The position numbers and the translations under genes are program-made. Shown here piece by piece: positions 7,963 to 38,038 of a DNA stretch of 64,000 nucleotides (position 1 is its first letter; each line of letters begins with the position of its first letter). Under the pieces are notes generated by a model that saw nothing but the letters and a program-made list of their open reading frames with translations, made no database searches and was not told the DNA's origin. Source of the DNA: Anagrus nilaparvatae (Eukaryota; Arthropoda; Insecta; Hymenoptera; Mymaridae); contig JAKSXM010000263.1 of NCBI GenBank assembly GCA_022575985.1, forward strand, positions 10,892,001 to 10,956,000. Reading direction: 5' to 3'.

Positions 7963-8062
7963 CCCAATAAGCACAATTCAATTTTTTTGAATACGGCTCG
8001 TATACGGAAATGGGACAAATTTCTAATTCGTGTCGTATTCGTATCGTACTCGAGTCGAATAC
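7963..8062 (+). repeat. Left terminal inverted repeat of the giant element
   Basis: Starts CCCAATAAGCACAA and then holds several overlapping copies of CGTATTCG/CGTATACG-type motifs, ending near ACTCGAGTCGAATACC. Clustered subterminal repeats of this kind bind the accessory protein in plant CACTA elements; the same use here is inference. Confidence 0.75.
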
Positions 8063-8399
8063 CGTAAATTTTAAATTTTTTGATAATTAAGTATTTATTT
8101 ATTGTATTTATTATTACTTAACTATTTATACAAAATAATTTATCAGATACACCATTTAATATATTTCTTAACTTAAATTTTCATTACTATTTTTATCGAA
8201 ATCTTTTTTTTTTTTTGTACATAGGAAAGAAAAATAATGAATAAAATGAAAAATATTCAAAAGAAAAGGTAGGTTAAATAATTCTTTTTTAAATAATGTT
8301 AAAATATAGGAATTTGCTTATTTATTATTTATTTATTACTTAATTATAAGATTATATATTTTTATTTAAATTTTAACACTACTGTCCCTATAAATCAGA

Positions 8400-8704
8400 A
8401 TCTAGTAAGATACGCCCTGTACTCAGTACTGCCTGTACATGAAATGGTTCTTTACATTTATAACCACAGATTAGGTTATACTTGGATATCCGCCATGTAT
8501 TCAGCTTCTTTACGCGCGCAAAGTGTGTGTTTTACTGTTTTTGCTTAATTGCTGAATTTGCACACGCGTTATTTTCTAACTCAATTTAGTGCTTAAAAAA
8601 TTAAATTAATTAATCTATTAAAATATTTAGTTGTTATAAATAAAAAATTATTTAAAAAACGTTTATAATTCAATAAAAAACTATATAAAATATAATATTT
8701 GTGG
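8400..8704 (+). promoter_or_regulatory. Possible promoter and untranslated first exon
   Basis: A slightly GC-richer stretch just inside the left end of the giant element, closing with a good splice donor (G|GTGAGT at 8704/8705). Two exon-like segments with proper AG and GT borders follow at 9018 and 9228. Nothing here codes for protein, so a 5' untranslated leader for the plus-strand genes is one reading. I see no specific promoter motif. Confidence 0.25.
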
Positions 8705-9017
8705 GTGAGTATAACCTTTCAATTTTCCCATTTATTTAACCTTTTTATTGTGCATAATTTTAACAAATTCCTAATTTTAATGTTTAAAATATTTTTTTTT
8801 AATAATTAATTTTTAAATAATGAATTAAATTTTTTGATAATTGATCGGTTTAATTTTAGTATAATAAAAATTAAATTAAATTACATTTTGCAAAATTTTG
8901 TAGCATGCTAGTAAGGATTTGGTATAGACCCACGTGGTTTTAAAGATTGTCATACATGTAATCTAAATATGTTAACAAATTTATTAAATTATTCATAAAA
9001 ATATTTATTGTTGGCAG

Positions 9018-9151
9018 ATACTTGGCTCTTCGTTAAATATTTTAAGAAGGTAGTACACACCAGCTTATACCGATTGACCAATAAATGGTGGAACCCATTT
9101 CATTTATCTCTTGCTTTTCACTATATTGGATTACAATTCTACTTTCTCAAA
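9018..9151 (+). other. Exon-like segment, copy 1 of a tandem pair
   Basis: Preceded by a T-rich tract and TTGGCAG (acceptor) and followed by GTAAGT (donor at 9152). Its first 14 bases (ATACTTGGCTCTTC) recur exactly in copy 2. No long open frame, so it would be non-coding or an untranslated exon. Confidence 0.35.
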
Positions 9152-9227
9152 GTAAGTTTATTTTGCTTTATTTAAAAATATTTTAACAAACTCATTAAAT
9201 TATTTATACACATATTTTTGTTGGCAG

Positions 9228-9319
9228 ATACTTGGCTCTTCATTACACCGATTGATCAATAAATGGTAGAACACATATCGCTTGCTTTTCAATATATATA
9301 GTTTCTGCTTGTGCACAAA
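9228..9319 (+). other. Exon-like segment, copy 2 of a tandem pair
   Basis: Same acceptor context (TTGGCAG) and same donor context (CAAAGTAAGTTTATTTTRCTTTATT) as copy 1, with an internal deletion relative to it. The preceding intron-like sequence is also duplicated, so the duplicated block is about 210 bp (8960-9170 and 9175-9350). Confidence 0.35.
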
Positions 9320-9937
9320 GTAAGTTTATTTTACTTTATTTAAAATTACCTTAAGGGCCAAAATGACTGACAATCACCACGTAAAATTCGTTATATTAGA
9401 GAGTGGCTACTCAAATATTATGTGTATGACAATGTCACAAAAGCTGATTTCGTAGTCACATAATACATTATGAAAGTTACTGCATCGTCTGCTTTGCGTC
9501 AATATGATTAGCCTCCAATTTTTTAAAATTAGCATGCATATATAAAAACAAATATTAATTAAAATTAAAAAAATAATATATATGTATATATGCTTGAATT
9601 AAAATTTATGCATTCCAACACCTAACAAGCAAAATAAAATAATGTGAATTACATTGCTAGTTACTGAGTATATGCATGCAACTAGCAATTTATAAAAAAT
9701 TTGTTTTTGATAAAATTTTTTTTTGTAGTTTAACTGCATATGAAATAAAACTCTTTGCAGTAGAGCAAAAACATTATAATTATAAAAAACTCTATAAAAG
9801 AATGACTTAGAGAGCTAATATTAGGTTTACGGTAACATGCTTTTTGACCATTAAAAGCTTTTTTTACAATAATTTAAAATACTTAAATTAAATTTAGAGG
9901 TTCTCATCTTCCTCATTATAGTTTTTTGGTATGGCCT

Positions 9938-10500
9938 CTAATAAGTTTGCATTTCTTGACTAGTTGTCATGAAAAGTGCGGTTTCAGGAGGGTAGTAAGT
10001 AGCCAAATGAATATGGCCTTGATTAAATGGATAAGCTTTAGCTTTTCGTAACATAATTTGCAAAATCCAAAAAATGCTTAACCATACTGCTCCCAGTGCT
10101 CCAACTGAAAAAATTCTAAAAGTAACGACACCTTTGTATTCATCCATTAAATACCCACATATTAAACTTCCAGATGAAACACCTATTCCTTCGAATATAG
10201 CTCCAACCAATCCTTGAATAGTAGCTTTAGTTCCTGATGGAGCTACCTTATTTCCATAGAACACCCTTGTTGGCCAACATAAGCCAAGAGTTGGACCATG
10301 CAATATTTCAATGCGAATAATAACCCACGGATTTCTGATCAAAGTATACATCATAAACCTTATGGCTTATACAAGAAGTACAAGGCTCATAGCATTAATG
10401 TGCCCAATTTTCCTCAAAACAGTCCCAGATATAAAAGTGAATGGCATTTCCCCAAAAAAACTTTGAACGCCTTTTAATAATCCTTGTAAGGATTTTAACC
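9938..10500 (-). pseudogene. MFSD6-like major facilitator transporter fragment
   Basis: The minus-strand frame reads membrane-protein sequence typical of the MFSD6 branch of the major facilitator superfamily. It runs from a GVQSFFGEMPF-like loop (about 10465), through a KIGHINAM block (about 10400), then EILHGPTLGL (about 10310), GTKATIQGLVGA (about 10230) and GSLICGYLMDEYKG (about 10150), ending with one more hydrophobic segment and a stop at 9938. A TAA stop interrupts the frame near 10366, between the KIGH block and the next helix. Only the C-terminal third is present; the earlier helices were not found. Together with the neighbouring MSH5-like remnant on the same strand, inside the giant element, this looks like captured host sequence rather than a working gene. 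Confidence 0.75.
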
Positions 10501-11276
10501 ATTCAACTTTTGATAACGCCTTTGCGATTGTATTACAAATATTATAATATTTATGAATTGATTAATTTAGGCACCTACTGTCTTGTTTGCAAAAAATTGA
10601 TATTCATAATTAATGTTACTCCACATAACGACTGAAGTTAATATTTTATAACGATATGAAATATTAATTCTCTACGGCTCTAAAGTTATTAGGATAACTG
10701 CTAACTCCTAATCTTCTGAAATTTGCCGTATAAAAAGAATTGTTAATACGGAGTATTACTATAATTATCATACATAAAGATGTATGTTATATAAAAATAG
10801 TTATAGGGAAACGGTCTGAAAAAGCTGGATATCTGAAAACCCACATCTTCAGATAAAGAAATTATAAATAATTTTTTAATTGTAATTTTGGGGGCCCAAA
10901 GATATTAATTCATTATCAACTACATTAAATCAAATTTAAGACAACCCAGCATACTACGAAGGTATATTAAAATTTCCAGACTTTTTCTCTCTTCTTCACA
11001 TTGCCTTATGTCCTTCTAAATAGCCTTAGAATATAACTATCTCTTTTTATTGTTGTACATGTTTTTAATTTTATGAAATTAAACAATTTAAATCAAAGAC
11101 AATAAAAATAATAAATATGAAGAAATAATGCTAAAATTAATTTTAATATATTTTGAAAAGAAAAAGATAGACATATTGTAAGGTTATTTAAAATAAGGAA
11201 AGGCAATGAGGGTAAAAGAGAACAAATCAAGAAGTTTTAAAAAACCTTTGATCTTTCGACTTTTAGTTCCTCTAGT
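10500..11276. other. AT-rich spacer between two gene fragments
   Basis: No supported coding sequence, and no clear intron or exon signals linking the flanking MFSD6-like and MSH5-like fragments. Confidence 0.4.
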
Positions 11277-12815
11277 TTAAAAATCAAATAACATTGATAA
11301 TTTATCAGCTGCTGATAAGATATCTGCTGATTCAGCAGGAATAAAGCTACCGATATGTGCCAAATAAAGTATTTGACCAATTTGTTTTAAATATGCAGTT
11401 TTACCGCAGCCATTTGGTCCAACACATAAGTGCACAACATTTTTATGACATGAGATTATGTCATTACTAATAAATTCACTGTTCATTTTTAACGGATATG
11501 TACTTTTCTTAACGTTGATTATCTTATTATTTCTTAACTGAGGTTTAACGAAACTCTCCGGCAACTTCATACAAAGATATTAATGCATCAGGCTTACCAT
11601 ACTGATATATAGCATCAGAAATTGCTTTAGCGTTATCACTGAATAGACTTTCGAATCTTGTAATAAGTCTAATGTTTCTATTTATTATAGATTTATGTAT
11701 GTTTTCAAAAATTTTATCAAGTCTTTCTGTTAAAGGAGTTTTGTAGTAATTAGTCCCATTGGAAGTAAATTTGTATTCTAATTTATGAAAACAAGATTTT
11801 TCACTAATATCATTATTGTTACTGATTATAGCTATACCAAATCCAAGTGTAGGAAAATTTACCAAGCGATAATTTTCAATGTCTGATAATATGAAGTCCA
11901 AATTTTTAGCATACAGTAGAGATATCGTTGTAGGTAAATGATAGTAAAGAGTTTTTAAAATATCAAGATATTTATCTGTCCCCGGTTTTATTGCAATTTG
12001 AGTTGGAGAAAAACATTTATCAGAACTGATTGTATAATCTAGAATACACTTTGAATAAATAATTTTTCTATTGATGCAATTAGGAATCTGATCAATCAGT
12101 GCTATGTTTACTTGCTGAGAATGACAAATAAATTGAGTATTGATTAAGCTGTAAAGTATTTTGTTTAAATGTAAAAAAATGTAAATAGTCTCTAATTTAA
12201 ACTTTTTAAATTTTCAAGAGATATTTTTTTATTTTTAGTAGGTATAATATTTGATAAATTTGATTAATGCATAAAAAATGGAGTTATGTCTGATTTAAAT
12301 GATGTATTTTGAGAAACTTTTAAATATTCTATAAACTGCAGTCTTTTATTAAGAGTTTTGATATCTTTGCTTGGAAATTTAAAAAATTCCCATAAACATT
12401 GAGATCCAACTTTAGATTTATATCGATTAAACATAGAATATAAATCATATATCTGTTTTTTGTTTTGATATTTTTTGTATAAAAAAAATTTACTGCTACA
12501 TAGATTCAAATCCAAAAATGATTCTGTATGAGATTCTGTATCTATTATAAGATAATCATCCTAATTAATTTTTGTAAACTGAATTTGATTAATCAAATTA
12601 TTACTACTTCTTTTTTTTAAATTCTTATTTAAGAACATTAATAAAATTCCCATCGAGTAAACATTACCAAAAGATGAAAAATTTATCAACGAATTAGCAA
12701 AAATTTTGTTTTTATCACAATCTCTATTTTTAGACAATATACTACTACTACACTTTTGAAATGAATAATTATCATTTGACAAAGAAATTAATTTGTAATT
12801 TGTTTCTTTACACTA
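11277..12815 (-). pseudogene. MSH5: MutS homologue 5-like pseudogene
   Basis: MSH5 pairs with MSH4 to stabilise meiotic recombination intermediates. Minus-strand blocks appear in the right order for MSH5. A lead block with NSLINF and a GILLMFL segment lies at about 12690. The core block LYSMFNRYKSKVGSQ (about 12445) corresponds to the connector/lever region. A lever block covers 12180-11905, a clamp-to-ATPase stretch 11901-11545, then the Walker A motif GPNGCGKT with YLKQIG and GSFIPAES (about 11420-11330). It is broken: an in-frame TAG at 12559-12561, a stop at 12264 followed by a frame change, another frame change near 11550, and loss of everything after the P-loop, including Walker B. There are no obvious introns. 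The MSH5 assignment over MSH4 rests on the block order and the GSF(I/V)PAE signature. Confidence 0.75.
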
Positions 12816-14040
12816 ATTGTGTACACTTCTAACTATTTATAGACATTTTGATAGAAAATAAAATCTAAACTTAAAAAAAAGCTTGATTTTTATTAAAAAT
12901 AGACATAACTTTTGTTTTCCAAAAAGAAGTATTTTTATTTTTAGATTTTACATGATTTTTATGCTAAAAATGTAAAAAAATCAAGAAAATCATAATTTAT
13001 AAATTTTCATTTTTTGTATATTTTAATAATCTATTTTAATTTTAATATTTGTTACGTCCAATTATAAAATTTATAATAAAAATTTTTTTTATCGACCTTG
13101 CTGGACCAATAATAAATCTTTTCGATTTATAACTATAAACTCACTTTTTTGATACGTGGATATAATCTATATCTCTTTTAATTAACGTACCCAGTAGTTG
13201 CTATTCATCAAAATGAATTTTTTATTGAAACCATGATTTTAAAATTTAGAAAAAATGAATCTATTTTAATTAAATTGTTTAATTGAGATGCATCATTCAA
13301 AGGATACTAAAATTACCCTTGTAAAATTTTCCGGATAATTCAAATTTTTTGTCAGATTTTCATTTGTGGTTTTGGATAAATTATATTTATTGTTTTTCAG
13401 TGTTATATACCAGATTATCCTCCAAAACAGGTTAAATATCTCACAAAAAAAAAATAATAATAATAAAATAAAATAAAAAATGACCAGGAACATTTTTTTC
13501 CTTGTCAACTGACGAAGAAAAATCTTATGCAATCCTTCTCTATAAAAACTCTAGAATTACTTTTTCATGTCAGCAGTAAAAATGCACTAATTTCCGCTAA
13601 ATGGTCGGAAAAATTTGTTTTCTCGACACTGTCAAAGAAAAATCGTATATATATACAACCCGTGTCCATATATAAACGCTTTGCCTCGGATTGTAATTTG
13701 GGTTCTTTGTCCCCAACATATTTGTAATAATTTTTTAAACCAATTTTAAGCAAAAAAATAATATAATTTGTTTTTTACCTAATTATGGGAGATAAAACCC
13801 ACCTGCTAAAATACTTATGTTTATGGGTAAATGCTAGGAAGTCACGATCCAAAATTCAAGTGCCTGAATGCATTTATTTGAAAACTTTCTGGACTAAAAT
13901 TGATATAAAACTAATAAGTTTTTTAAACTCCCAAATACAATAGTAACATTTGTTTTTTTTTTTTTTTTTTAATAAAATTAAATTATTTTTGCCAATAATA
14001 AATTCACGATATGAAATAGCAATATTTTATACATTATAAT
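12816..14040. other. AT-rich spacer
   Basis: No supported gene. Opposite-strand open frames at 13527-13753 overlap one another and show no recognisable motif. Confidence 0.35.
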
Positions 14041-14054
14041 TTAAAAAATAGGAA

Positions 14055-14262
14055 TATGTCTATAGGATTTAAATGATGTATTTTGAGAAACTTTTAAATA
14101 TTCTATAAACTGCAGTCTTTTATTAAGAGTTTTGATATCTTTGCTTGGAAATTTAAAAAATTCCCATAAACATTGAGATCCAACTTTAGATTTATATCGA
14201 TTAAACATAGAATATAAATCATATATCTGTTTTTTGTTTTGATATTTTTTGTATAAATTTTG
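14055..14262 (-). pseudogene. Second copy of one MSH5-like block
   Basis: A segment of about 200 bp nearly identical to 12284-12490 of the MSH5-like pseudogene, in the same orientation, about 1.77 kb away. It carries the LYSMFNRYKSKVGSQ block and nothing else of MSH5. The near identity means this duplication is much younger than the decay of the gene, or was maintained by conversion. Confidence 0.85.
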
Positions 14263-14989
14263 TAAATAATATAATATGGTCACGTGACTTAGCGGGAAAT
14301 CAGCAAAATAAGTAACAAGTCAAAATTGAAAAAAACGGAAAATTCACGAAAATCGGTATTACGCGCTTAAAACAAAAATTACTCTCGGGAAATTTTTTTT
14401 AGTAAAATATATGCACTTTCGGAAAATTTTGAGAAAAAAAAAATTTTTTTTAGCGGGAAACTTTTGAGTTATTTTCACTTAAAGTTTTACACAAATTTGA
14501 ATTTTCCCGCTAATTGGCATAGAGTAGGAAAAATCTGACTGAAAATTTGTATTCCTCATCAAATTTTACATCGACTTCTTTCTTTTTTTTTTTAACGTTT
14601 TTTAGAGCTTTTTCACGGGAGTTTCAAACATGGTGGCTGAGAAGAGAAATTTGACAAAAAAATTTTAATCAGCATAGCACCCTTAAAAATTTATAGAAAA
14701 CCTTCAAATTCGGGGAATCATCTATTTTTAAGTTGTTTTATCGAAAAAAAAAACAAATTTCCTATTTTTGAGATCTCGCATATCACTTTGTGCTATTTAT
14801 CCATGGAATTACCCTCAGTTCTTATATTTCTATGATTAAATTTTAAAAATTTTCTTATATCAAAGACAAAATCGTTCTTTCTAAGGACATTTCAGCAAAG
14901 AAGTTAAAAATAAAGACCCTTTAAGGACCACAAGGACCATTTTCTGAAAATAAGAACTTTGTAAGGACCACAAGGACCATAAGGACTGG

Positions 14990-15125
14990 TAGACACCCTG
15001 TGTAGGATAAGCCTAATTGACAAAGAGTCTCGACTAGGCCGCCTAGCCTCTTCGGCTACTTTTGTACGGACGTTTTGTCCATACTGTCGAGCCGCAGTCC
15101 TCTTAACCACGCCCACACTTCCTTT
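14990..15125 (-). repeat. Possible tRNA-derived SINE head
   Basis: A GC-rich island in AT-rich DNA. The minus strand reads GGGCGTGGTTAAGAGGACTG, resembling the A-box and D-arm of class II (Ser/Leu) tRNAs. Next come an anticodon-arm-like stretch and GGACAAAACGTCC, which folds like a long variable arm. The T-arm is not recognisable, so it is not a functional tRNA gene. Short AAGGACCACAAGGACCAT repeats lie on the plus strand to its left (14920-14985). Confidence 0.3.
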
Positions 15126-15486
15126 ACTTCCACACTAGCTCAGCACACCTAAAAACCCCCCAAACAGTCTTCAACTATTATATTTTCAGTTTTAAAAATT
15201 TTGGCATTTTTTAGAAAAAGTTTGGCCAATTTCGAGTCCGCAAATTCGAATTTTAAAATTTAAGTATAAAATTCTTGCTCAGCTCACCTGAAAACGCCTC
15301 GAAACTGCATTTTTTTTCTCTACTTTGAAACATTCGGAACTTTTTCAAAAAAATTGTCCAATTTCGGGTCCGACGTTTTAAATGAACCCCCTCCACCTTC
15401 CCCTCAAAAATTTTTTGAAAATTTTTTTTTTCACTAAATATGCGCTTAAGTATATATGAAATGAAATATGCGTTAAACTCTCGGTT

Positions 15487-15680
15487 AAACTGTAATAAAA
15501 CATTAAATCTGTAGATGCGACAATAATATATGAAAACACATTCGAGTATTTTGTCATCCTATTATAAAATTCCGCTGTCCAGGACCAGCCAGGACTAAAT
15601 AAAAATAAATTTCATGGGATAGTAATCAGTATTTGCATTAAGATGCGATATTAAATATATTTTTCTTGAGTTAAATTGCT
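15487..15680 (+). repeat. Dispersed repeat, copy 1
   Basis: Shares blocks such as AAAACATTA, ATCTGTAGATGC, GTATTTTGTCATCCTAT and AGTAATCAGTATTTGCATTAAGATG with 16527-16740 in the same order and orientation. The two copies bracket the palindromic element at 15945-16377. A weakly similar stretch also lies near 52190-52570. Confidence 0.65.
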
Positions 15681-15944
15681 ATCTCTAAAAAACTCATCAA
15701 TTTTTTGTCTAATTTATTCGTGTTTGGATTGGTTAGGCTGATTTTTTCATTATTTATTTTGTTAGTTCTAATTTTTATTATCTTTTAAAATACTTAATTA
15801 TTAATAAAATTTTTTTAAAAAAATAGTGAAATAAGAAATACAATAACTATTTTATTATACAATCTAAAAATAAAATTGGTCGTTTCATTGAAGCTCTGTA
15901 GTGTTAGCGCCGCGCTGTATACAAATTTGTAAACAGTTTTAACC

Positions 15945-16377
15945 TATTAAGGCCTAAGCGGACACTCTTGGACACTTGCATTTTTCGGTAATAAAAACTG
16001 CATATTTTAGACTAAAACCCTCACCTAGTAAGTAATTTGGGTTGCTCTTTTCATTTCCGGGGTCCGTTTTTTGATACAACCCCTGCGAAACCAGATATCA
16101 ACCCCTAAAGTGGGGTAAACTTTCAAGTAATTCTTAAGGAATCTTTAGTTTTTCCCAAATGCGAAAAAGTTTTTTTTTAGCATAAACTTATTTGTATTTG
16201 GGAAGAACTAAAGATTCCTTAAGAATTACTTGAAAGTTTATCCCACTTTAGGGGTTGATATCTCGTTTCGTAGGGTTTGTAGCGAAAAATGAGTTCCAGA
16301 AATGTAAAGAGCGACCCAAATTACCTACTAGGTAAGGTTTTTAGCCTAAAATATGCAGTTTTTATTACCGAAAAATG
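15945..16377. mobile_element. Fold-back element, family TTAAGGCCTAAGCGG, short copy
   Basis: Starts TTAAGGCCTAAGCGGACA. Its left arm (GGTAATAAAAACTGCATATTTTAG, then CCTAGTA, the GTTTTTTGATACAACCCCTG block and an AGTGGGGTAAAC block) is matched in inverted order by the right arm, ending GCAGTTTTTATTACCG. The right arm lacks the outermost 35 or so bases, so the copy is end-truncated. The middle holds the mirrored AATTCTTAAGGAATC and TTTGGGAAGAAC segments. No ORF. A fuller copy is at 26930-27860. Confidence 0.75.
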
Positions 16378-16526
16378 TTAATAATTATTTATAATAAATT
16401 CATCGAATTAATTTAATTAATTGGAAAAATAAACAGTATTTATACTGTTTTCTCATTATTATTAATTTTTTAATTTTCTAATAACATAAACTGTAAAAAT
16501 AATTATAAATGTTAATGAAAAATGTT

Positions 16527-16740
16527 TAAACTATAACAAAACATTACATCTGTAGATGCAACACATAACATATGAAAATTAATTGCAGTATTTTGTCATC
16601 CTATAAAAATTTTGCCATCCAGGACAAAAGAAATATATATTTTAAGGGTTGAAAAAGGTTCTGATCCGAGGCGCGTAGCACCAACAGACAGTAATCAGTA
16701 TTTGCATTAAGATGGGTATTAAATAATTTTTTCTTGAGAT
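16527..16740 (+). repeat. Dispersed repeat, copy 2
   Basis: Counterpart of 15487-15680. It carries an extra segment, rich in CG relative to its surroundings (about 16640-16690), that copy 1 lacks. Confidence 0.65.
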
Positions 16741-16749
16741 ATATTTGGA

Positions 16750-17225: not shown

Positions 17226-17306
17226 AATTTTATGTTGTATAAAAAATCGAGTCAATTATTGTGCATTTTGTTTATTTATAATGGATAATTTTTTTTTTAT
17301 TTACAG

Positions 17307-17485
17307 AATGTCTGAAAGGGATCAAATGGCAGCGTGCTGTCACTGTAAAAAAGAAATGGCTGCTAACGGTGGGCATAAGTGTAAAATGTGCGATTCCGTT
17401 GTTCATGGAACAGAAGATTGTTCTAGACCCGTGTTTTTCGAGGGATATGGAAAACCTACTATCTGCCTTGGATGTTATTACAAAG
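17307..17485 (+). CDS. Zinc-binding domain exon, candidate first coding exon
   Basis: A single exon with a strong acceptor (a run of T, then TTTACAG at 17300-17306), an ATG at 17308 and a donor AAAG|GTAAAT at 17485/17486. It encodes about 59 residues: CCHCKKEM, then HKCKMCDSVVHG, EDCSR, EGYGKPTICLGC. This gives four CxxC or HxC-type pairs, probably binding two zinc ions. Similar Cys-rich modules occur in transposon-derived proteins such as the KRBA2 type. The exon ends in phase 1. The DUF4806-type gene 13 kb downstream starts with an exon needing phase 1, and the joined reading frame stays open, so this may be its N-terminal exon. The alternative is a solitary fragment of another transposon gene. 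Confidence 0.45.
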
Positions 17486-17639
17486 GTAAATTATTCAGAA
17501 TGATAATAACAGAAGTATATGCTTAAAAAATCTTAATATACGATAGCATGTATTTATTATACACATTAAAATTTGGGATCTATTTTATTTTTGGACATGC
17601 ATATAAATCTTAATACTATATTGTTTGAATATTTAATTG

Positions 17640-17960: not shown

Positions 17961-17964
17961 TATT

Positions 17965-19800: not shown

Positions 19801-19809
19801 TTAAAGTTT

Positions 19810-24346: not shown

Positions 24347-26501
24347 CAACATGTCTCGAAAACCATTTCACTTTCTCGGCCGAAGTCAACAGCATCGTCT
24401 ATTAAGTGAAGATTTTGAAGAAGATTTGCGGATAATTAATCAAGACGAAGAAATAGAGGGTATGGAATTGGGAGATGAAAATATAAACGAAGAAAACAAT
24501 AGTACTATTTTACATGAGAATTATACCGAAAATCCGCGCAGTATGCATATGGACGATGATGCAGTAGATGTAGAATCAACGTTGAATGCATTGTTTAATT
24601 CGTTCTTTTTAGATGACGACTCGAATGTAGACTTGGGTTTAGAGGACGATGATACTCAAGAATATTGGCTTTCGGAAAGTGAGGCAGATAATGATAGTGA
24701 ATCAGATCATGATTTTGAAGAAAAGATACTAGAACCAGGTAATGAAGTTCATACAGAAAAATGTAAAGTATCTGAAAACTGTCCTCTAAAATCAAAGCTC
24801 CAAGCAGCAACATTTGTAGGGAAGCTAACTTGTGAAGATACCCATGAATTCATGACTATTATGCGTGAAATAGGACACGAGGAACTTCCAGTTGATAGGC
24901 GCACTTTATTGGGTACTCCGAGAGTAACCAATATAATTCCATGCGAAAGTGGTGAATACTTTCATTATGGTATAAAAGAAGGTCTTATATATGTATTAAA
25001 ACGATATAATTTAAAAAAAAAATTATTCATAGATATTGGTATAGATGGATTGCCTTTAAGTAGTAGTAGCAATCAAAAGTTATGGCCTATTCTAGGAAAA
25101 ATTAAGGGAGCAAATGAAATACCACCTTTCCTTATTGGTTCATACTATGGGTATAAGGAACCCGAGAATGCTTCCCCCTTTTTGGATGAATTTATAAATG
25201 AATATCTAGATCTAAAAGCGAATAATTTTTCATATGAAGGAGTAACGTATAATGTAAAAATAAATAATATTATTTGCGATATACCGGCCAGATGCAAGTG
25301 TACTTGCAGCAAGTACTATACTGGATTCTTTGGATGTAGACATTGTAAAATTGAAGGGTTACGCTACAAGAAAAGAACCATTTTTTTGGAACAAAATTGT
25401 GAATTGAGAACAAATGATAATTTTCGCAATAGACAGCAAAAGGAACATCATGATGGAACTTCTCCTTTTGAAAAAACAGAAGTTGATATGGTAAACTCCT
25501 TTCCAATCGACTATATGCATTGTGTTTGTTTGGGAGTGATGAGACGTTTATTAACCATCTGGTTTAGAGGAGATCCTAAAAAGAAAATAAAACCATATAT
25601 TCGCTCATTAAAAGTAATGGAAGAAGTTTCAAATTTGTTTCTAAGCTTTGGAAAATTTATGACAAAGGAGTTTAACAGAAAACCCCAAGCGCTAACCGAA
25701 ATAGGAAGATGGAAAGCTACGGTATTGAGATTCTTTTTACTATATGCTGGTCCAGTGATTATGAAAAAGTATCTTCCTGAGCGCGAGTATAAACATTTTA
25801 ATAGCCTGAGTTGTGCTATTCGAATACTTTGCGATCCAGTCTTGTGCAAAGAAAAAAATAACTTTGCTAATGAACTATTAAGAGATTTTGTCACAGAATT
25901 TGCTGATATTTATGGACATGAGTATTGTACTATAAATCCTCACAGCTTAATACATCTAGCAAAAGAGGTAATTAATAACGATGGGCCTCTGGATTCTTTC
26001 AGCGCTTTTCCCTTCGAGAATTATATGCAATTTCTGAAAAATATTCTTAGGAAACGACATCAACCTCTTCAGCAATTGCATCGAAGGTTAAAAGAAGGTC
26101 GTTGGCCAAAAAAACAACCTCGAGTAAAAGCAGCTACTTTGAAAAATCCACTAAAAACTCGATTACCATTAAAATGCCAACAAGCTCATCGAAGATTAGT
26201 TCTACCTACAGTAGAATTTAGTATAGATTTTCCAAATAATTGTTGCATATTAAAAAATAACGTTTACTTTATTATTTCTGGAATTGGTAAATTAGACGGA
26301 AATATTGTTATCATTGGTAGACGATTCCTAAATGCAATAAATTTGGAACATTATCCTATGGCATCTACTGAAATAAATACTTGCATTTTGCAAAATTTAT
26401 CTGAGAAACAAGAAGTGTTTGATATAAATGAAATAAAATCAAAAGCTTGTATTTTTGTGCATGAAGATGTATTTTACGTAAATAAACTCTTACATTTTTG
26501 A
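24347..26501 (+). CDS. CACTA/En-Spm-like transposase (Tnp2 family), 716 residues
   Basis: This would cut and join the ends of the surrounding giant element. The frame is intact from ATG at 24351 (context CAACATG; a possible splice acceptor AATAG lies at 24342-24346) to TGA. Residues 1-150 are very acidic. D228 and D232 lie in LFIDIGIDGLPL, followed by LWPILGKI and an FLIGSYYG block, as in Tnp2-type transposases. D310 lies in ICDIPAR, followed by a Cys cluster (C315, C317, C319, C329, C332, with H331) that probably binds zinc. D387 lies in FPIDYMHCVCLGVMRRL, the most diagnostic motif. E556 in FPFENYMQFLKN is a candidate late catalytic acid. The family match is by motif; the exact catalytic triad is my guess. 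It is the largest intact frame in the window. Confidence 0.75.
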
Positions 26502-26509
26502 ATAAGAAA

Positions 26510-26925
26510 GTGTACAATTTAATGCATTATTTAATTAAAATGCTTTGAATGAAGCACAAATGTAGCGTTTTGTGCACACTTTCGTTTCAGAGCTTTGCAT
26601 TTTTAAAATACCATTTTTCTTTATTTGCGATTTAATTATTCATAATTATCGTAGTTTTGTAGGTTATGTATTATTATAAATATATAATTGACTTAATCAA
26701 AGGGTTTATTTACCGCAAAGCGACAGCTTCATATTTCTAAATATAAATGTATACATATATCAAATTTTTTTATACTTATTTTAAAAAATTGTAATTCAAT
26801 TTTGTTGTTAATTGTATTTCATTTCAATGAATATTATTTTAAAATATAATATTTTTATTAAGTATTAAGTAATTTCAAAAACAGTAATTTTTATTAAAAA
26901 CATTATCATTTATTTTTATTTTTAA
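26510..26925. other. AT-rich 3' flank of the transposase
   Basis: No coding sequence. AATTAATTAAAAT-type stretches occur; a clear AATAAA just after the stop was not identified. Confidence 0.3.
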
Positions 26926-26929
26926 AAAA

Positions 26930-27860
26930 TTAAGGCCTAAGCGGACATCCTTGGACACTTGCATTTTTTGGTAAACTGCATATTTTAGGCTGAAAAACCT
27001 TTGGGTCGCTCTTTTTATTTCTGGGGCCCGTTTTTTGATACGTCCCTGCGAAACGAAATATCAACACCTAAAATGGGGTAAATTGTTAAATAATTCTTAA
27101 AGAAACTTTAGTTATTTTCAAATAAAAAAAATTTTTTAATTAGCAAAAAAAAATTATTACAAGGAATCCCAAGAAAAGGTTAAAAGTAAAATACGTATGT
27201 ATTAGCCATTGCAACCCTCCCTGGGGGTGTCTTTAGTAAACAAAGGGGTGAGTTTTATAAATAAATGAAAGATTGAATATTTTGTGCCAAAAAGCTCACC
27301 TAGTAGGTATTTCGGGTCTCTCTTTTCATTTCCGCAGCCCGTTTACACCTACACCCCTGCAAAAATATTAGTAAATTTAAAAATTTACCCCATTTTAGGG
27401 GTTGATATCTCATTCGTAGGGGTTGTAGCTGAAAATGAGCTCCATAAATGAAAAAAGCGACCCAAATTACCTACTAGGTGGGGGTTTTGGCCCAAAATAT
27501 TCAATCTTTCATTTATTTATAAAACTCACCCCTTTGCTTACTAAAGACACCCCTAGGGAGGGTTGCAATGGCTAATACATGCTTATTTGACTTTTAACTA
27601 TTTCTTGGGAGTTCTGGTAATAATTTTTCATGCTAAATAAAAATTTTTTGCATTTGGGAAGAACTTAAGTTTCTTTAAGAATTACTTGAATATTTACCCC
27701 ACTTTAGGAGTTGATATCTCGTTTCGCAGGGGTTGTATCAAAAAACGGGCCCCAGAAATGAAAAGAATAAATTACCCACTAGGTGTGATTTTTAGCCTAA
27801 AATATGCAGTTTTTATTACCGAAAAATGCAAGTGTCCAAGGATGTCCGCTTAGGCCTTAA
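26930..27860. mobile_element. Fold-back element, family TTAAGGCCTAAGCGG, long copy
   Basis: Ends are TTAAGGCCTAAGCGGACATC and its exact mirror GATGTCCGCTTAGGCCTTAA. Outer arms carry AATATGCAG and ACGGGCC blocks and a GGGGTAAAT block. An additional inner pair of arms, from ATTAGCCATTGCAACCCTCC (27200) to its mirror (27573), makes a palindrome inside a palindrome. No ORF. TTAA at both ends could be a piggyBac-type duplication, but because TTAA is palindromic it could equally belong to the arms. Confidence 0.8.
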
Positions 27861-28155
27861 TAGGTTAAATTACCAGCCCTTTTTATAGCCAATAAGATTG
27901 CGACTATTAAGGGCAATGTCATAACGCACGCTTTTTTATATGAATAGATTATTCGTAAGATAGTTGCTTTCTTAGCATATTCTAACAATGTAGTAACATT
28001 AAGGATAGGAGTACTTATACAAAAGATATTTCTTAGTAATTATTTCATTAATTTTTTAAGCACTCCTTTATTAGAAAGTTTTTAATTATACATTAGTTTT
28101 AATTAATTTGTATAATTAGTTGTTTGTTGAATGTCCAAATGATTATTTCAAAAAA

Positions 28156-28414: not shown

Positions 28415-29766
28415 TTTTTTGTATAATTAGTTTAAATAGAACATTCTGGTATACTCTTATTATAAATAATTGTAAAAGAAAAGTAAAAAAAAGTTAATAA
28501 AAAAACTTTATAATTTTTTTTGTGATAGAACAATTAAAGTCTTAATCTTTATTTTATTAATTATCTAATAGAATTTAATTGTTCTAAAATTCTGGAAGTT
28601 TTGAGAACGAAGTTATGTGTGTTGTAAAAATCTGTTTTAATCCTATAAAAGGAACGACAGATTTTCGCATAGCCTATTCATAGTTTTGCTGTCTTGAACT
28701 TCAAATGTATTCAACTTAATCTTCAATAAATCGTTGCATTTACTCTATATATTTACTATATTTTTATTTTAAGACAGTGAAATTCCATAATCCATTTTTA
28801 TTTTCACCAAACAAAATTTGCATATTGCAAATAGATATATTGTAATTATTTTTTTTCTTTTCAGTGATATCTTTTAGTTGCAATGCAACGGTCATCTTAT
28901 ATTGCGAATAGCAATATAAGACCTTAAAAGGTCTCTGCTGAAAACTGAAAAATTTTAGTGTTAGCACGTGCTCTTATCGGAGTTGATATTGTTTTACTTA
29001 GTAATTCAATAACGAATTTTTTTAGATTAAATTGCCATACAATAGTTGCCGATCAAATTATAAACACATAATTTTAGTCGCGGGCCCCTTTCAATAAAAT
29101 GTTTTGTATTTAAAAAAATTTTTTTACACCGCAGTCATTATATAAGAAAATGCATTATTATTAAAAATAACTTCTAAATATTTACATCTATAAAATAAAT
29201 AATAAATTTTAATTAATTATTTATGCTGATGTCACCCCAAAATATACGGACCATAAACCGTGAGTCACCTAAAAAACAATACAATAGAGTTGATTACTTA
29301 AAAGGTGTTTAAATAAGTCTGTGTACATTTCAATGACGTACTGTGTTTTTTTAAAATAAATTGTTAATTCAAAGTTTTTTTAACATAAAAAATAGGCAAA
29401 GGCAATCCGTTAATTGATCTTATATTTCAGATTTCAGATAGTTGCTTCTAATTGAAAAATAATATATAGGTTTAATAATTCAATTAAATTACTTTTTTGG
29501 ATCTTCTTTTTCCAATCATCAAAAGATAAGCTTTACTTAAAATTTATTAGATCGCTTGTAAAAAATGTAAATACAAATGTAAAATGTAAATTTATGTAAA
29601 TTGTGAAAAATGTAGCCGGCAAATTCCACAAAAAACGTTAATTTTTGTTAAGTTTGATAGATTACCCAACATAATATTAATAGAGTAAGACCTCCTGTAT
29701 TTAAATTTTTATCTAACATATTTTAATTTGCCTTAACAACATTAATAAATTTTGACCAATTATCCC

Positions 29767-30462
29767 TACCTACTACATTCCAATAGGTAAAATGGTCCAT
29801 TCGAATGGGTAAATCAGTAGGTTTTACTCATTCACATTGGGTAAAAGAAAGTAATTTACCCAAAGCGCCACCGAATGAGTAAATAAGACAGCATTTACTC
29901 ATTACAATAAGTAAAATAGTATAATTTACCTATTGGCTTATATCACGGAGGATTTAACTTAATAAATAACCTTAAAATTATTATTTTTTTATAAAATTAT
30001 TAAAAAAAATATATTAAAAGGAATAAATAAAATAATTATGTTTCTTTATGCAGTGTTTAAATTACGTTTCATAGGTTAGAAACTATAATAATTGTAAAAT
30101 TATAAAATTGAAATCATAAATAGTTATTTTAATGTAATAATTAAATGTCAACAAAATGAAAGCAGTTTATTTTACTCTATCGCTTCTTATTTTTTTTTTA
30201 GTTTTATTTATTTTATTTTTTCAGAAATTCTATATAAAAATAATAATTGTAAGGTTATAATAAATAAGTTGAATCCTCCGTGATGAAAGCCAATAGGTAA
30301 ATTATACAATTGAACTTATTGTAATTGAGTAAATGCTATTTCGTTTACTCATTCGACAGCGCATTAGGTAAATTACTTGGTTTTACCCAATGTAAATGAG
30401 TAAAACCTACTGATTTACCCATTCGAACGGACGATTTTACGTATTGGAGTTTAGTGGGTTAG
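29767..30462. mobile_element. 696-bp MITE with long inverted ends and iterated GGGTAAAT/ACTCATTC motifs
   Basis: The left arm, starting CCTACTACATTCCAATAGG, is mirrored at the right end. Arms of about 190 bp contain repeated pieces of GTAAA next to CATTCG, CATTGGG or AATGAGT, and close with ATCACGGAGGATT and its mirror. The centre is AT-rich and non-coding. It sits just upstream of the DUF4806-type gene. Confidence 0.75.
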
Positions 30463-30756
30463 GCAGATTAAATTATATGAATATTATAGTATATTTTGTA
30501 ACAAATTTTGTGTTTACATTAGAAAGATCACTGTCAAGAATGCCTGTCAAACCCATGCAGAAGTGTGACAGTGGTGGTGAAACCCACCAAGATGTACAAA
30601 AAATGTTAAAGAAAAACTTATTTTATGAATTGAAAATATTTAATTAAAAATGGTTTTTACAATATATTAGTTTTAAATATTTAGCTCGGTATAAAACCAT
30701 AATACAGGCAAATTTCTTTTATGAAATAACATAATAACAAATATTTAAATTTATAG

Positions 30757-33700
30757 GATCATTTTGTGTTGTATGCTTTATGGATAATAAAAATGTCGAA
30801 TTCAAGGATATAGTATCAACCGCTTGGTTAAATGTAAATGAAGAAGCTCTTTATTGGCCAAAAAAAATGAAGGCAGATTTATTAAAAATTGACATAAACC
30901 AGGTTGATATTATCATATACACAAAAATACAAGAAGTTCATGGTCCATATAGTAAGTATAGGTGGTATCATATTTATAGTATATATTAAGCTTAGTGGTC
31001 TTTGATAAATAACGTCCAAAATGTTTGGGTACGTTTATCTTAGTAGGTCAGAACATGTATAGGTTTATCTTAAAATTTGTCAATTTGGTCAAAGTAGAAG
31101 GTGCAAAAACTGACAAAAAAGGGGTATAATTCTGGTTATTGTTTTGTATATTTTGACATTCGGCATCTAAAATTTTGAAAAAATAACGTATCAGATCTAA
31201 ACTTTGACTATAAACAATATTTCTAAAATTAGTACTCCCAAAAAATCAGAAATCAAAATTTTACCTAAAACAATGGTTCCTCTATGAGAAATAAAAAAAC
31301 CATTTATACAAGATAAAAATAAAATAAATATTTTAAAATTTAAATTTGTTTATAAATAATTTAACAAATTCTGTTTTACGAATATAAATATTTTAATAAG
31401 CTAACAACTCAAACAGTAGAAGATCTAAGTTAAATAGAATAAATTTTATATTTATAATAAAAAAAATCGTGCAAAATATAATTTATTTGATAATACTCTT
31501 TATTTTAATAATAACAGTATTGCTGTTTAATTTTATTTGATAAATTTTTTTTTGAAAAATTCCAAACGCCAAAATACACGAATCAAAAACAAGCAATAGA
31601 GACCAGTTTATAACGGTTTGAAAGTCTTGTAGCCGAAAAAAAAACAAAAAATTCGGAAATTGAAAAAATTTGCATTTTTGAATAAATATGGCTCATTTTC
31701 ATTTTTTTTGCAAAAATAGATTTAAAAAAAATAATATAAAAATCTTGTTTTAGTGCTGTAATTTTTAGAAAACATAAAGTAAAAATTTTTTTATCAAAGG
31801 ATCAACTTGTTATTGTCATAAAAACTTAGTAAAATTAAAAAATTTTTATTATTGTGTTTTTAAACGATTATTTCTTGAGGTATAAAAAAGTATTTTTATG
31901 CTTTTTTGAATAAATACGTAATTTTTAGTCATATTTTAAACTAAAGTAGCATCTAAAACATTCATTTAAGGTTAAAAATAGCTGTTGGTACATCTAAAAT
32001 TAAGTGAAATACAAACTTTTAAAAAAAGGAAATAAAAATCCATGCACTTATTATTTTTCTTAAAACACCAAGTTCTTAATAGGAACGGTAAAGGCTTTTT
32101 AGAGGAACGGTAAAGACATTTTTGTCATATTTTAGCCAGAAATTTTTTTTCAACTTAAAATTAAGTTCATTTTTATGGTGTATGGTCAACAACTTTTTGA
32201 AATACAAACTTTAAGACAAAAAAATTTGACAATTCTTACTTCAATCAGTATATACGACCACGTGACACTATTTTTGCAAAAAAATGAAAATGAGCGATAT
32301 ATGTTTTTCCCTTTTTTAGTCCTTTTGTGACCCGATAAATTTAGAGCCAGAAAAATTTTTACATTATAAAATATTTATTTTTTTTATATAATATTTATCT
32401 TCTAATTAAAACAAATATTTTGAATCAGAAACTATGAAAGAGGCTAGAGAAATTTTAAATAAATTATCGTCTGACGAGTCAGGAGTATCAAATAATGAAA
32501 CCCAAAATGTAAATTCTACACAAGAGCAAGGTAGTAAATCAAATTCTCATAAACGCAAGATAAAACCAAACAAAAAAGACGATTACATTTATGGAAAAAA
32601 CGCAACAGGAGAAACTGTGAAAGGTAAGCTTAAAGTTAATATTTGGCAAAAAACTGTATTGTTCACGTACAAAACAGTTTACGTGAAAACTTTGCGTATA
32701 AAACAAAATAAGCTCAAAATAAAAAACAAAAATAATTTAAGGAAAATAAAAAAAACATTTTTGAAAAGTGTCAAATAAGGCTAAAAATTTTTGAATATTT
32801 TCTTTTTTTTCAAGTCAAGTAATCAATAAGTAAAAAACCATATTCAAAACGGTATAATAAGAAAATTTTAAAAGAAATAAATACAAACAATCAGCTCAAT
32901 TTTATTAAATGATGACTGCATTGCAAAAATTTTTTTTCTATTTATTGTACATTATTCTTAAGCATAATAATCATAATGATAAATTCTTATCTGTAATTTT
33001 TTGCAGTTCCCCGAAAAAATGTAACAAAAAAAAATGATACTGCAGTAGACGCAAATGATATTGAAAATACTGATGATGATAAATCTGAAGAAGAAGTTAG
33101 TGATAACAATGATAATGACATGTCAACGGAGCTTGGTCTCGAAAGTAAGATTACAATTGGTTAAGGAATTATTTTTTGTATTTAATATTTATTTTGTATA
33201 TTAATGAAAATTGTAAACTTTTTTCAGGTACCTCAATCACACAAAATATACCCCTTTCTACTTTGACCGATAAAGAAATAGTTATGAGTACACGTAAGAA
33301 AAAAATATTTTTTTATTTTTGTTCCAAAAGTTTTAATATTTTTTATATTAAGTCTAGAAATCAAAATTATTCTAAGAATTATTTGAAGCCCCTAATTAAA
33401 AATTATTATATGTCCCTACAGCTGAATTATTCTAAGTCCCTAAATTTAAATTATTTTAAGTCTCATTTGACCCCCCCCCCCTTAAATAGGACAAATTTGA
33501 CCCTCCCTTAATTTTCAAGTTCTGAAGTACCCCCTCCCTATAAACATGTTCCATGATAATAAATTTTACATTGCAATACATGCAGCATAAATGCAATAAA
33601 TTTTTTATTTTAAAAATTATTATTTTTTTTAAATATTTAATTATAAAAACAAGTAACAATCTAAAAAATCACCGCAATAAAATTATTAAATAGTTTGATC

Positions 33701-36617
33701 GTGTACGAGTTTAGCATTTTTTTTTTATTCAAATATGTTTTCATTTAAAAATTCATACAGAATTTTTCTTAAAAAGTTTTTCTTTCTAATTTTTTTTTTT
33801 ACTTATTTTCAAATCACATTAAAAAATAATAAATTTCGGAGGTTACTTATTTTAAAAAATAAAGAATTTTATTTTAAAAATTGTTGTTTACAAATTATTT
33901 AAATTTTAATTAATAAATAAAGTTTAAAGTTGTTTTTAAATTTTGTTTTTAATATTACGTGATTATTAATTTTTATTGCTAAATATATTTTTATGCAAAT
34001 AAAATTAACTTTAAAAATTAAGGTTTCTGTATACAAAAAAATAAATGCCAAAACTTCACCATAGTAGTATTTGCAGATAACTTATTAATATATATCTTAT
34101 CTTTATAATGATACGCATTTATTACAGGCCTGATTTCTTATCTAAGATAAGCGAGAAGATAAGTTACTGTTAAATAAACTGAAAAGTACTAATAAACAAT
34201 TTTAACTTGCTTTAAAATTTAATTCCAGTTAATTTTCTATGTCCCTGTGTACACTAGCGTCATAAAGGAAATTTGCTAAATGATTGATTTACGGTGTATC
34301 TGTAAAAAATTAATCGTGTTGCTGGCACTGTAATAAATTGTGCCCAAAAACTCGACCATTTTTTTAAAAATTGAAATTTAAAAATTATGACACATATATG
34401 GATAATATAATATGAAAGAACTACGTAGGAATTTCGTATATTACCGAGGTGTGAGAAGTTGGTTGCACGAATCACCAGCCGTGTGCCAGTAACCCACACC
34501 GAGATGTGTATAAAAAATTTCCGCCAAGTTCTTTGTGTTATTTTATACTTCACCTAGTAAAATAATGAGTGTCTGGTACTTTAATTTAAAAAAAATATTT
34601 AAAATAAAATCAAATTCGTTTATTTCAAAAACTAAAACTCCTTAATTTTAAAAATAATATTAGACCAATTGGCATGATGTGCATTAAATAAAAATTAATA
34701 AATATTTTTTAAATTAACATTAGAATCCAAAAAAAAGATGACAATAACGCCAAAGCCGGCTTCTGTAACTCCTGTAGTTCCAAGAACAGATCCTGTACCT
34801 AAACCATCCAAAGAAAGTGACACAGCAAGTGGTATGTAATAATTACAAATTGCAAGTTAACTTGTCTGTGTATAGAAAAATAATTTAACATTTTTTTAAG
34901 GTTCAGGTGTTTCAACATTGCAAGACAAGTTTAATAAACGTATGCTGTTTAAGATGAATAAGTTCAGACGGGAAGTTGATTCTAAAATAGCTGCTGCTCA
35001 TCGACGTCATCATGGTCAACGTTCTGACTTGGAGCTCAGAGGGCCTAATTTAAGTAAGCTGCCAAAAATACCGATAAGGTATCAGATACATATTGATCTG
35101 TTGGAAACAGCTCTTAAAAATGTAAGGGATACAGAAATAGCTAAACAACAAATAGTAAGTTTATTATATTTTATATATTTTGATGTGCTTGCACAGTTCT
35201 ACCCTACATATTAAAAACCTTAACATCTGCATTTTAACGTTTTCGAGATATTAAGCGAAATGTATTATCATTAATTTTTTAATGTATTTAAATATTTTTA
35301 AAAAAAGTTAACATGTTTTCATACTAAAATGTATGCTCTTTTTAATAGTAAAAAAATTTTTTCCTCTTCTCCAGTCTTTGTATAAAAAACTTAAAATGTG
35401 CCATTTCAATATCTGAATTTGACGGAAAATACAGATTAAAAACATCAATATCTGCATGTATTGAACGGCCAGGCTACTTTGCTTGAAATTTCAAACAGTT
35501 GTTGAAATTAACTAAAAAAGACTTTAAGAAGCTTAATTCATTTTTAAACATTTTTTTGAGGAAAAAAATATTACTTTCTACGAATTTCTTAGTTCATTCT
35601 TTTTTATTTATATTAGCATTTCTCGATAAATTTATGGTTTGTAGCTGCTGTGACGTTTTCAAGAGAGAATAGGGGGTTAATTTTATAAAATAAGGGGTAT
35701 AAAATTTAAGCTTTCCTAAAGTCTGTTTTAGTTGATCTAAACAACTGCTTGAATTTTCAAGTAAGAAATTTTACAAATTTCAGTATGCAATTTCTCAGGT
35801 ATTGATGAAGTACCACGCGATGGCAATGCATGAGAAAAACCTCAATATTTACAAAGACAAAGATATGCCATTTTCTGCGTATTCTTTTTTTTATGCATAT
35901 AAATTTTTTTTCAATATCTAAGACTGCAGGTGTGTTATTGGATATCACTAATGAAATAATTTTTGCACCATTGATTAGAGAATTTGATATCGATTACGCC
36001 CATATAAAAAAACTCATTTTCCATAAAAACCTTGATATTGAGGAATTGTTTAATAAATTATAACTTTATTGTTTACTATTTCTATTTAAAATGTATTAAA
36101 AATTCCTTTAACATTTTCACAGGAGAACCTTATGTTATTTCTTGGAGGTGACACACCAAAAGATTTAATCGAGAATACATTTGACGCCTTGTATACGAAA
36201 AGATGCTTACATGGGATATACAGTTGGTCCGGAGGGTCAAGAACAAAAGGCGTTCAAAAAAAAAAAGTTTTTAAGGATCTTGCAGCTGTGAAATTCGTAT
36301 ACAGTAAGAAAATTTATAAAAATATGGATATGAGGATTTTTTTATCTTTACCGCAGGTGACAACGAATTTTTAAAAGTTTTGATCTAAGTTTGATAATAG
36401 TCACCAAAAGGAAAAGAATCCTAGTTTATATATTTATTTAATTTAATAATATAATTACGATTCCTTTTTAGCAAAAGCAGCAATGATAACTTATGCAAGC
36501 GGTGACACCAACTTAACTTATTGTGAAAAAATGGCTAAAAATTATATGCAAAGAGTCCGTGATCGGAAAGACGAAGTATTCACTGATGAGGAAGATGAAG
36601 CAAGTGCAGAAGAGTAA
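30757..36617 (+). CDS. DUF4806-type protein, multi-exon, apparently intact
   Basis: I place exons at 30757-30951, 32429-32623, 33007-33144, 33228-33293, 34724-34831, 34901-35154, a possible 15-nt exon 35784-35798, 36123-36303 and 36472-36617. All have AG and GT borders and join without a stop. The first five introns are all phase 1; later ones are phase 0, 0 and 1. Read with the zinc-binding exon at 17307 the product is about 491 residues; from the internal ATG at 30780 it is 424. The N-terminal strand FCVVCFMDNKNVEF, the KEAREIL block, acidic linkers, an LLETALKN helix and LGGDTPKDLIE followed by GIYSWSGG match the layout of DUF4806 proteins. The molecular role is unknown. Linkage to the transposase suggests an accessory DNA-binding role, by analogy with TnpA of En/Spm. 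The 15-nt exon is the weakest part. Confidence 0.6.
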
Positions 36618-36619
36618 AA

Positions 36620-37900
36620 TACAAGAACTAACTTTGCGTATATAGTATTTTTTTAATTTGTGTTTTTCTAAGTTTTTATTTTGTCTAGTTTTTGATTTAA
36701 ATTAGAATATTGGTTTTTTTGCCCTTTGCTACAGAAATATTTGTATTTTGCATTAGCCAACATTATAAGAATAATAAAACTAAAAAAAATGTAGATTGTT
36801 TACTCATCTAAATATTGTTTTAAGAATTATAAATTTTATTTTTATTTTGTCTAATGCAAATTGTATTATTTATGATAATCAAAAATATATTTAATATATT
36901 TAATATATTAAAAATTAAATATTTATAAGAATAAAAATTGTTTATTTTTTATGCTAAAATTTTGTATCATGAATATAATTTAATTTAAGATTAAAGTAAG
37001 TACTTATTTCTCAAGTACTTACGCTTTCAATTTACGTTTACGTTATCAAAAAAATTTTTTTTTTTTTAGTTTGTATTCTTTTAAATTTAGATACACATCT
37101 TATAACTTAAATAATTCCGTTCCACAATGTGCCGATTTAATTAAAAATTATCCGTCTTTGTACAATTTTATTTTTTCACTTATTTATTTGTTTCAAAGCC
37201 TTCGAATACTTTTTAGAAACATGATACTTTTTTCAAATTTTCATTATTTGACTCAGATTACGGGTAATAAAGTTAGTAATAATGTTCATAAACAAGATTT
37301 TTTTAATTTCAAATATATTTGGTAACCTTGTGAAATGCAAATTTTACATACTTATCATGTAGCGATGAGCACATTCTTTTATTATAAAAATGAAATTTTA
37401 CGTAATCAGAAAATTTTTTATTGAATCGGTACATTGTGCGTTGATTTGAGAATAAGTTATTTTGAGAATAACTCTGAAGTAAAAATCTTGAGTTTTAATT
37501 TAAACAAAGCTTTGAAAAAATTTACTTTTTTATTTTTATTTTATTTGTAAGCAAATAAGAAAACAATTCTCAACCAACTGAATACTCTGCATAGAGTTTT
37601 GCAATTTTTTTTAAAACAATGTGCAACTCCGTTTCAACTATTTACAATTCCTTTGCAATTCTTCGCAAGTCTATGCAGATTTTTTTGTTAGTTGTGGTTT
37701 AAAGAAAACACAGTAAACTTAATCATTAATGTTAATGTTATAAGTATTTTATTAATAAAACTATTTAATTTAAAAATATATTGTTTGAAAACTTTATTTT
37801 TCACAAAACTCAACAATTATTCCTTTTTTATTCCTGTTTATTATATATATATATCAGTTAATTTATAATTTTATACAATTTTAAAATTTAAAATAATTTT
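36620..37900. other. AT-rich stretch between the DUF4806-type gene and the right end
   Basis: No gene supported. AATAAAA at 36771-36777, about 155 bases past the stop, is a possible polyadenylation signal for the DUF4806-type gene. An open frame at 37071-37325 is low-complexity Phe/Asn-rich and probably spurious. Confidence 0.4.
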
Positions 37901-37904
37901 TTTT

Positions 37905-38038
37905 AAGAATCCGATACGAATACGATACGTATACGAATATTTGTCCCATTTCGTATTCGATCCGTATGCGTTTCGTATACGACACGAGTCCGCTCGTATT
38001 CGTCTCGTATTCGCCTCGTATTGTTTGTGCCGATTGGG
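37905..38038 (-). repeat. Right terminal inverted repeat of the giant element
   Basis: Read on the minus strand: CCCAATCGGCACAAACAATA, then at least eight tandem-like CGAATACGA/CGTATACGA motifs up to about 37910. It aligns with the left end at roughly three-quarters identity, with about 50 bp more of the repeat motifs. Confidence 0.75.

Follow-up and report, generated by a model that had tools for sequence, protein, structure and literature searches.

A probable giant DDE transposon related to animal CACTA-like elements in the genome of Anagrus nilaparvatae

The window analyzed here is a stretch of 64,000 nucleotides from the hymenopteran Anagrus nilaparvatae (GenBank assembly GCA_022575985.1, contig JAKSXM010000263.1, positions 10,892,001 to 10,956,000 of the forward strand). 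Within it a repeat is interrupted by 30,076 bp of other sequence (7963..38038), which, judged from its ends, genes and relatives, is very probably one member of a family of giant cut-and-paste transposons of the DDE type, akin to the CACTA-like (TRC) elements of animals. As far as sequence comparison and structure prediction can tell, the element encodes a transposase whose core has the RAG1/Transib fold and whose C-terminal part is BAH-like, along with a zinc-finger exon and a second protein from a spliced gene. The features of the locus, with the evidence for each, are as follows.

7420..7649, plus strand: intact neighbouring repeat copy, the empty-site reference (alignment to the joined flanks)
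7960..7962: target-site duplication GAT, left copy (flank alignment)
7963..7976, plus strand: left terminal inverted repeat CCCAATAAGCACAA (end comparison, chance test)
7987..8063: left subterminal cluster of TCGTATTCG-like motifs, with ATGGGACAAAT at 8010 (motif counts)
9941..10366, minus strand: MFS_1_like transporter piece, C-terminal part only (Pfam, E 1.8e-18)
11280..12812, minus strand: contiguous MutS-family pieces, interrupted by stops and frame changes (Pfam and PDB matches)
14021..14257, minus strand: duplicated MutS piece, matching 12246-12483 at 93% (repeat comparison)
17308..17502, plus strand: SCAND3-like zinc-finger exon (Znf_SCAND3 match in Pfam, sub-cut-off at E 6e-5)
24351..26501, plus strand: transposase, 716 amino acids in a single intact frame (relatives, alignment, predicted model, ratio of nonsynonymous to synonymous substitution rates or dN/dS)
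30780..36617, plus strand: second gene, 419 amino acids in eight exons (GT-AG borders, open reading through all exons)
30780-30951, 32429-32623, 33007-33144 and 33228-33293, plus strand: exons 1-4 of the second gene
34724-34831, 34901-35154, 36123-36303 and 36472-36617, plus strand: exons 5-8 of the second gene
37916..38013: right subterminal motif cluster, with inverted ATGGGACAAAT at 37949 (motif counts)
38025..38038, minus strand: right terminal inverted repeat, reverse complement CCCAATCGGCACAA (end comparison)
38039..38041: target-site duplication GAT, right copy (flank alignment)

The left junction reads AGAGAT followed by CCCAATAAGCACAA, and the right junction TTGTGCCGATTGGG followed by GATGTT. 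When the flanks are joined with one GAT and aligned to the intact neighbouring repeat, the 230 columns contain 9 mismatches and no gaps, so that the break at 7962, the resumption at 38039 and the single GAT of the neighbour are exactly where the original prediction had placed them. The inverted ends and subterminal motif clusters that it described are also present. Compared in inverted orientation, the two ends agree at 12 positions out of 14 (pattern CCCAATnnGCACAA), a level reached by 178 of 2,000,000 random opposed position pairs in the window, 10 of which also have an equal 3-bp flank. When up to one mismatch is allowed, each strand of the window contains CCCAATnnGCACAA a single time, and exact matches are confined to the two element ends. 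Of the 34 TCGTATTCG-like motifs counted on the plus strand of the 64 kb, 5 fall within the leftmost 150 bp of the element and 7 within its rightmost 150 bp, and ATGGGACAAAT is present once near each end in inverted orientation.

The 488.7-Mb genome (393 contigs) was searched with the left 118 bp and the right 138 bp, all counts being lower bounds. The left query has at least 14 matches, comprising 6 paired left ends (the window's included), 6 unpaired left ends and 2 cross-matches to right ends; the right query has at least 23, of which 6 are paired and 11 unpaired right ends and 6 are cross-matches to left ends. This search, which had been recommended with the original prediction, recovers five other paired copies, with 3-bp duplications where the termini are intact:

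C342:14426032-14462268: giant, 36,237 bp, duplication TCT
C95:18001017-18035019: giant, 34,003 bp, duplication CTA, left end CCTAAT
C155: 7,081 bp, duplication TAC, non-coding
C113: 6,194 bp, duplication TAT, non-coding
C79: about 6,989 bp, left terminus damaged, non-coding

The ends are thus found on two further giants and not only on short miniature inverted-repeat transposable elements, and a 3-bp duplication flanks 5 of the 5 paired elements with intact termini, the window element among them. Because empty site, duplicated GAT, inverted ends and these 3-bp duplications all agree, the proposal that the interruption is one mobile unit holds. The longest frame in the three short copies and their flanks has 147 amino acids. 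Such same-ended copies of 6-7 kb lack a long frame and are full of large internal palindromes and repeats.

The two other giants sit in unrelated flanks and are nearly identical to one another. Eight aligned pieces (685, 7,013, 5,211, 3,795, 2,053, 5,948, 2,555 and 1,673 bp) are 99.3-99.9% identical, and over their 28,933 bp, which leave out about 5.1 kb of C95, there are 56 mismatches and 13 gap openings (about 99.8% identity). The likeness begins within one base of the left terminus and exceeds the right terminus by 15-19 bp, an excess taken as chance. One additional stretch of 2,226 bp in C342 (14446849-14449074), with a 4-bp overlap at the C95 position, is likely a nested insertion. Near-identity at unrelated sites indicates, at the level of sequence, that units of 34-36 kb moved whole and recently in this genome. 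The left end at C79:11707943 is likewise 99.6-99.9% identical to the left ends of these giants, and a right end of C175 is 98.6% identical to their right ends.

At E 0.001 the transposase has 214 relatives, 120 of which are listed; the best of these, P0001, shows 90% identity along the full protein. Hymenoptera make up the first six relatives that bear a name (Trichogramma kaykai, Linepithema humile, Formica fusca, Cardiocondyla obscurior, Temnothorax americanus and Eretmocerus hayati), followed among the listed matches by beetles, ticks and fish. Another relative, P0057, is labelled a protein of a Sedimenticola (bacterial) metagenome-assembled genome, a label that we suspect reflects eukaryotic contamination. 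Across an alignment of 25 sequences, including 24 relatives picked from the 120, residues D232, D310 and E556 are invariant. The modelled residues 144-589 form a RAG1/Transib-like, RNase-H-like core with conserved D, D and E; the RAG and Transib rows among the listed structure matches are 8-13% identical. Residues 593-711 (window 26127-26483) are predicted to adopt a BAH-like fold, which lies outside the matched RAG1 region, and several columns of this C-terminal part are common to most of the 25 sequences. Transib elements generate target duplications of 5 bp, as opposed to 3 bp in the window family. An intact homologue of the transposase is present in C342 and one with an in-frame stop in C95. 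Between the window and C342, dN/dS is 0.148 over 708 codons; by this codon measure the transposase evolves under purifying selection.

The C95 giant contains matches to five of the second gene's eight exons (42-64%), and the gene may have an additional upstream exon. The only Pfam match to its product is a weak one to an unrelated family, DUF5525 (E 0.007). A link to the DUF4806 tail of P0017 was considered and is not claimed because the pairwise matches are weak: hhalign gave E 0.0019 with a probability of 14.5%, and BLASTP among three chosen proteins, run without low-complexity filtering or composition correction, gave 1.5e-4, a score exceeded in the same run by a low-complexity stretch of P0104 (2.2e-5). 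The zinc-finger exon is retained at 46% in both C95 and C342, and weaker zinc-finger matches lie close to right ends in C337 and C147. Zinc finger, transposase and second gene occur in the same order and strand in the window and in C95. Two intact-looking plus-strand genes had been reported for this element, and they correspond to the transposase and the spliced second gene. With an intact transposase frame, the spliced gene and the dN/dS value, the suggestion that the element is possibly autonomous appears sound as regards coding capacity.

Several observations weigh against the overall reading as a giant DDE transposon family. The closest relative of the transposase, P0001, is on a contig of 3,174 bp, too short to show the size of its element. 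We infer from conservation and fold that D232, D310 and E556 form the catalytic triad, yet another acidic residue, D387, is likewise invariant in the 25 sequences. Transposase_21 is not among the Pfam matches at E up to 1, and the match to DUF4218 (E 0.0018) is below cut-off, while this domain is annotated (precomputed) in some of the relatives. A protein search of 4,311 candidates at E 0.001 turned up no relative of the second gene product. Eleven right and six left ends are unpaired; partners were sought for two of them, the left end at C79:11707943 and the right end at C175:1639398, and none were found at the expected distances. Finally, the window's own subfamily is represented by one giant only among the copies found, so the present length of the window copy may include later nested insertions.

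This last point leads to the strongest alternative, that a small transposon was swollen in place by nested insertions and that the window copy never moved at 30 kb. Besides the single giant of its subfamily, the five foldback (palindromic) repeats within the element, together 2,718 bp, would fit such a history. Its 34- and 36-kb relatives speak against it, as they occupy different sites with different duplications and share about 99.8% identity over 28.9 kb, from which it follows that this size does move in the family. The distance between zinc finger and transposase is moreover 7-8 kb in both subfamilies. We regard growth in place as unlikely, while granting it a larger share of probability than any other alternative.

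A second alternative is suggested by the MutS and MFS pieces. In a composite origin, two short ends of the same family would have trapped host DNA including these pieces and moved once. The MutS pieces match MutS_V above cut-off (E 1.2e-9), MutS_III below it (E 9e-6) and MutS in the PDB (7.8e-10); a 222-amino-acid piece had no match in a PDB search, and NCBIfam gave no better name. An assignment first to MSH4 and then to MSH5 was dropped in favour of MutS family only, because the best of 29 protein matches is 25% identical over 89% and the three organism-named matches are all bacterial. The MFS_1_like frame extends, by eye, upstream beyond a stop. Consistent with trapping, neither MutS nor MFS pieces were found in C342:14432501-14461499 or in the C95 giant (whose letters read lack 18001701-18001999), and short copies with the same ends exist. 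The unit nevertheless carries the family's own three genes, ordered as in C95, with a transposase under purifying selection, and a composite origin is quite improbable. Should the pieces prove to be captured, the family would also offer a route for moving gene-sized DNA.

That the unit is an assembly artefact or a chance pairing of unrelated ends deserves almost no credence: the window element is read from assembled sequence, but its exact duplications, its gap-free empty site and the chance test all contradict this, as do the five further paired copies, whose ends match even though one has a damaged left terminus. A Polinton/Maverick or other virus-like giant element would fit the size range, the type-B DNA polymerase piece at 1369-2052 of the window and a Baculo_LEF-2 match (E 0.029, below cut-off) to a frame inside the element, but this reading is practically negligible, given that the polymerase piece lies 5.9 kb outside the element, that target-site duplications are 3 bp as opposed to the 6 bp of Polintons, and that no polymerase, capsid or packaging family reaches cut-off in the 22 scanned of 45 inner frames of at least 70 amino acids. 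Neither type-B polymerase nor integrase was detected in these 22, and Pfam matches in the other inner frames scanned were below cut-off only.

The favoured reading, a giant DDE family, raises the question of class. Plant CACTA/EnSpm elements have 3-bp duplications and subterminal repeats, and both canonical features are present here (3 bp in 5/5). The terminal CACTA core is absent, the ends being CCCAAT (CCTAAT at one C95 end). Animal CACTA-like TRC elements are reported to have CCC ends and 2-bp duplications and to measure 5.2 kb in Tribolium and 9.2 kb in Aedes (PMC1636069). The Tribolium end CCCTAGTAGCACC... resembles the window's CCCAATAAGCACAA, and SmTRC1 bears a repeated motif within its terminal repeat, which we count as a likeness (PMC1636069). 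The window family also has ends starting CCC, apart from the one CCT, whereas its duplications are 3 bp and its length 30-36 kb; the comparison covers ends, duplications and size. Because CCC ends are common to both while duplication length and size differ, the family is CACTA/TRC-like and not a strict member. The earlier assignment to the CACTA group therefore stands in part: fold, DUF4218 trace and TRC-like CCC ends agree with it, and the lack of the CACTA core and of a listed Transposase_21 match do not.

Large size has precedents of other kinds. Red-algal En/Spm elements are enlarged to 16-20 kb with 4-5 open reading frames (PMC6431247). The window family shares with these and with plant CACTA/EnSpm its 3-bp duplications, subterminal repeats, more than one gene and large size, and differs in its missing CACTA core, the unlisted Transposase_21 and a length 1.5 to 2 times that of the algal elements. 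Giant animal elements moved by DDE enzymes are already known, since a review of transposable elements >20 kb names Teratorn besides Polintons/Mavericks (PMC6431247). Teratorn, a fish piggyBac-herpesvirus fusion of 41-182 kb (PMC6431247), similarly combines giant size, a DDE transposase and short inverted ends, but its piggyBac transposase and herpesvirus genes were not met in the window frames scanned. Animal Pack-TIRs, named for their terminal inverted repeats, capture a median of 224 bp; none were found in the insect reference genomes surveyed and one family, Ssk-FB4, occurs in fly populations (PMC8277862). They too hold non-transposon sequence between their ends, whereas the window unit also has its own genes and its MutS/MFS capture is only putative. 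The titles and abstract openings listed in literature searches revealed no animal CACTA-like element of this size, nor a BAH domain in a transposase of this kind.

What is directly observed comprises the ends and their duplications, the empty site, the genes present and their conservation, and giants that are nearly identical although they lie at unrelated sites; the biochemical steps that could account for them, and accessory roles for the second gene, zinc finger and BAH-like tail, are proposed as follows. The transposase would recognise the CGTATTCG-like clusters near the ends, possibly helped in DNA binding or otherwise by the second protein and the zinc finger, and pair the CCCAAT...GCACAA ends across 30-36 kb. 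It would then excise the unit and insert it at a staggered 3-bp cut, giving rise to the 3-bp duplication. The same proteins could mobilise the short, same-ended non-coding copies in trans, and by way of chromatin the BAH-like domain may influence which targets are chosen. Natural cut-and-paste transposition is described as less efficient the farther apart the ends lie, yet 100-200 kb have been moved with artificial constructs (PMC6431247). It is tempting to speculate that this is a lineage of giant elements in which a RAG1-fold transposase, equipped with a BAH-like tail that reads chromatin, transports 30-36 kb within an animal genome, occasionally with blocks of host genes, as a natural large-cargo system that escapes the usual length limit; this is a tentative idea, which we would sooner expect to fail than to stand. 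The near-identical 34-36 kb copies in one genome make pairing of distant ends directly testable, and the predicted tail suggests chromatin-guided insertion as a testable idea.

The interrupted repeat had also been described as ribozyme-bearing. A hammerhead descriptor (CTGAGGA...GAAA, stems I-III), composed after the site had been seen, has a single match in the window at 7776-7849 (plus strand) and none in 100 mononucleotide shuffles; its complementary loops were judged by eye. The match lies beside the interrupted copy and not within its 7895-7962 piece. Rfam gave no match at gathering score and, for 7000-8100 at E up to 5, no ribozyme among 8 matches, mainly microRNA models on an AT-rich palindrome. 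RNA folding gave no sign of a ribozyme (z -0.8; 44 of 200 shuffles equally stable).

Other features of the window include large foldback repeats at 42194-43904, 3733-4793, 26921-27869 and 29768-30459, with arm identities of 76-90%. The polymerase piece at 1369-2052 (minus strand; DNA_pol_B_2, E 1.9e-15) is possibly another large element or a viral remnant. Two direct repeats of 276 bp (54367-54642 and 61386-61661), 100% identical and 7 kb apart, are possible long terminal repeats, and beyond them lies a DUF1759 frame (62229-63536), a domain present in BEL/Pao elements. A reverse-transcriptase frame (RVT_1, 45845-47877, plus strand), preceded by an endonuclease match below cut-off, probably belongs to a non-LTR retrotransposon.
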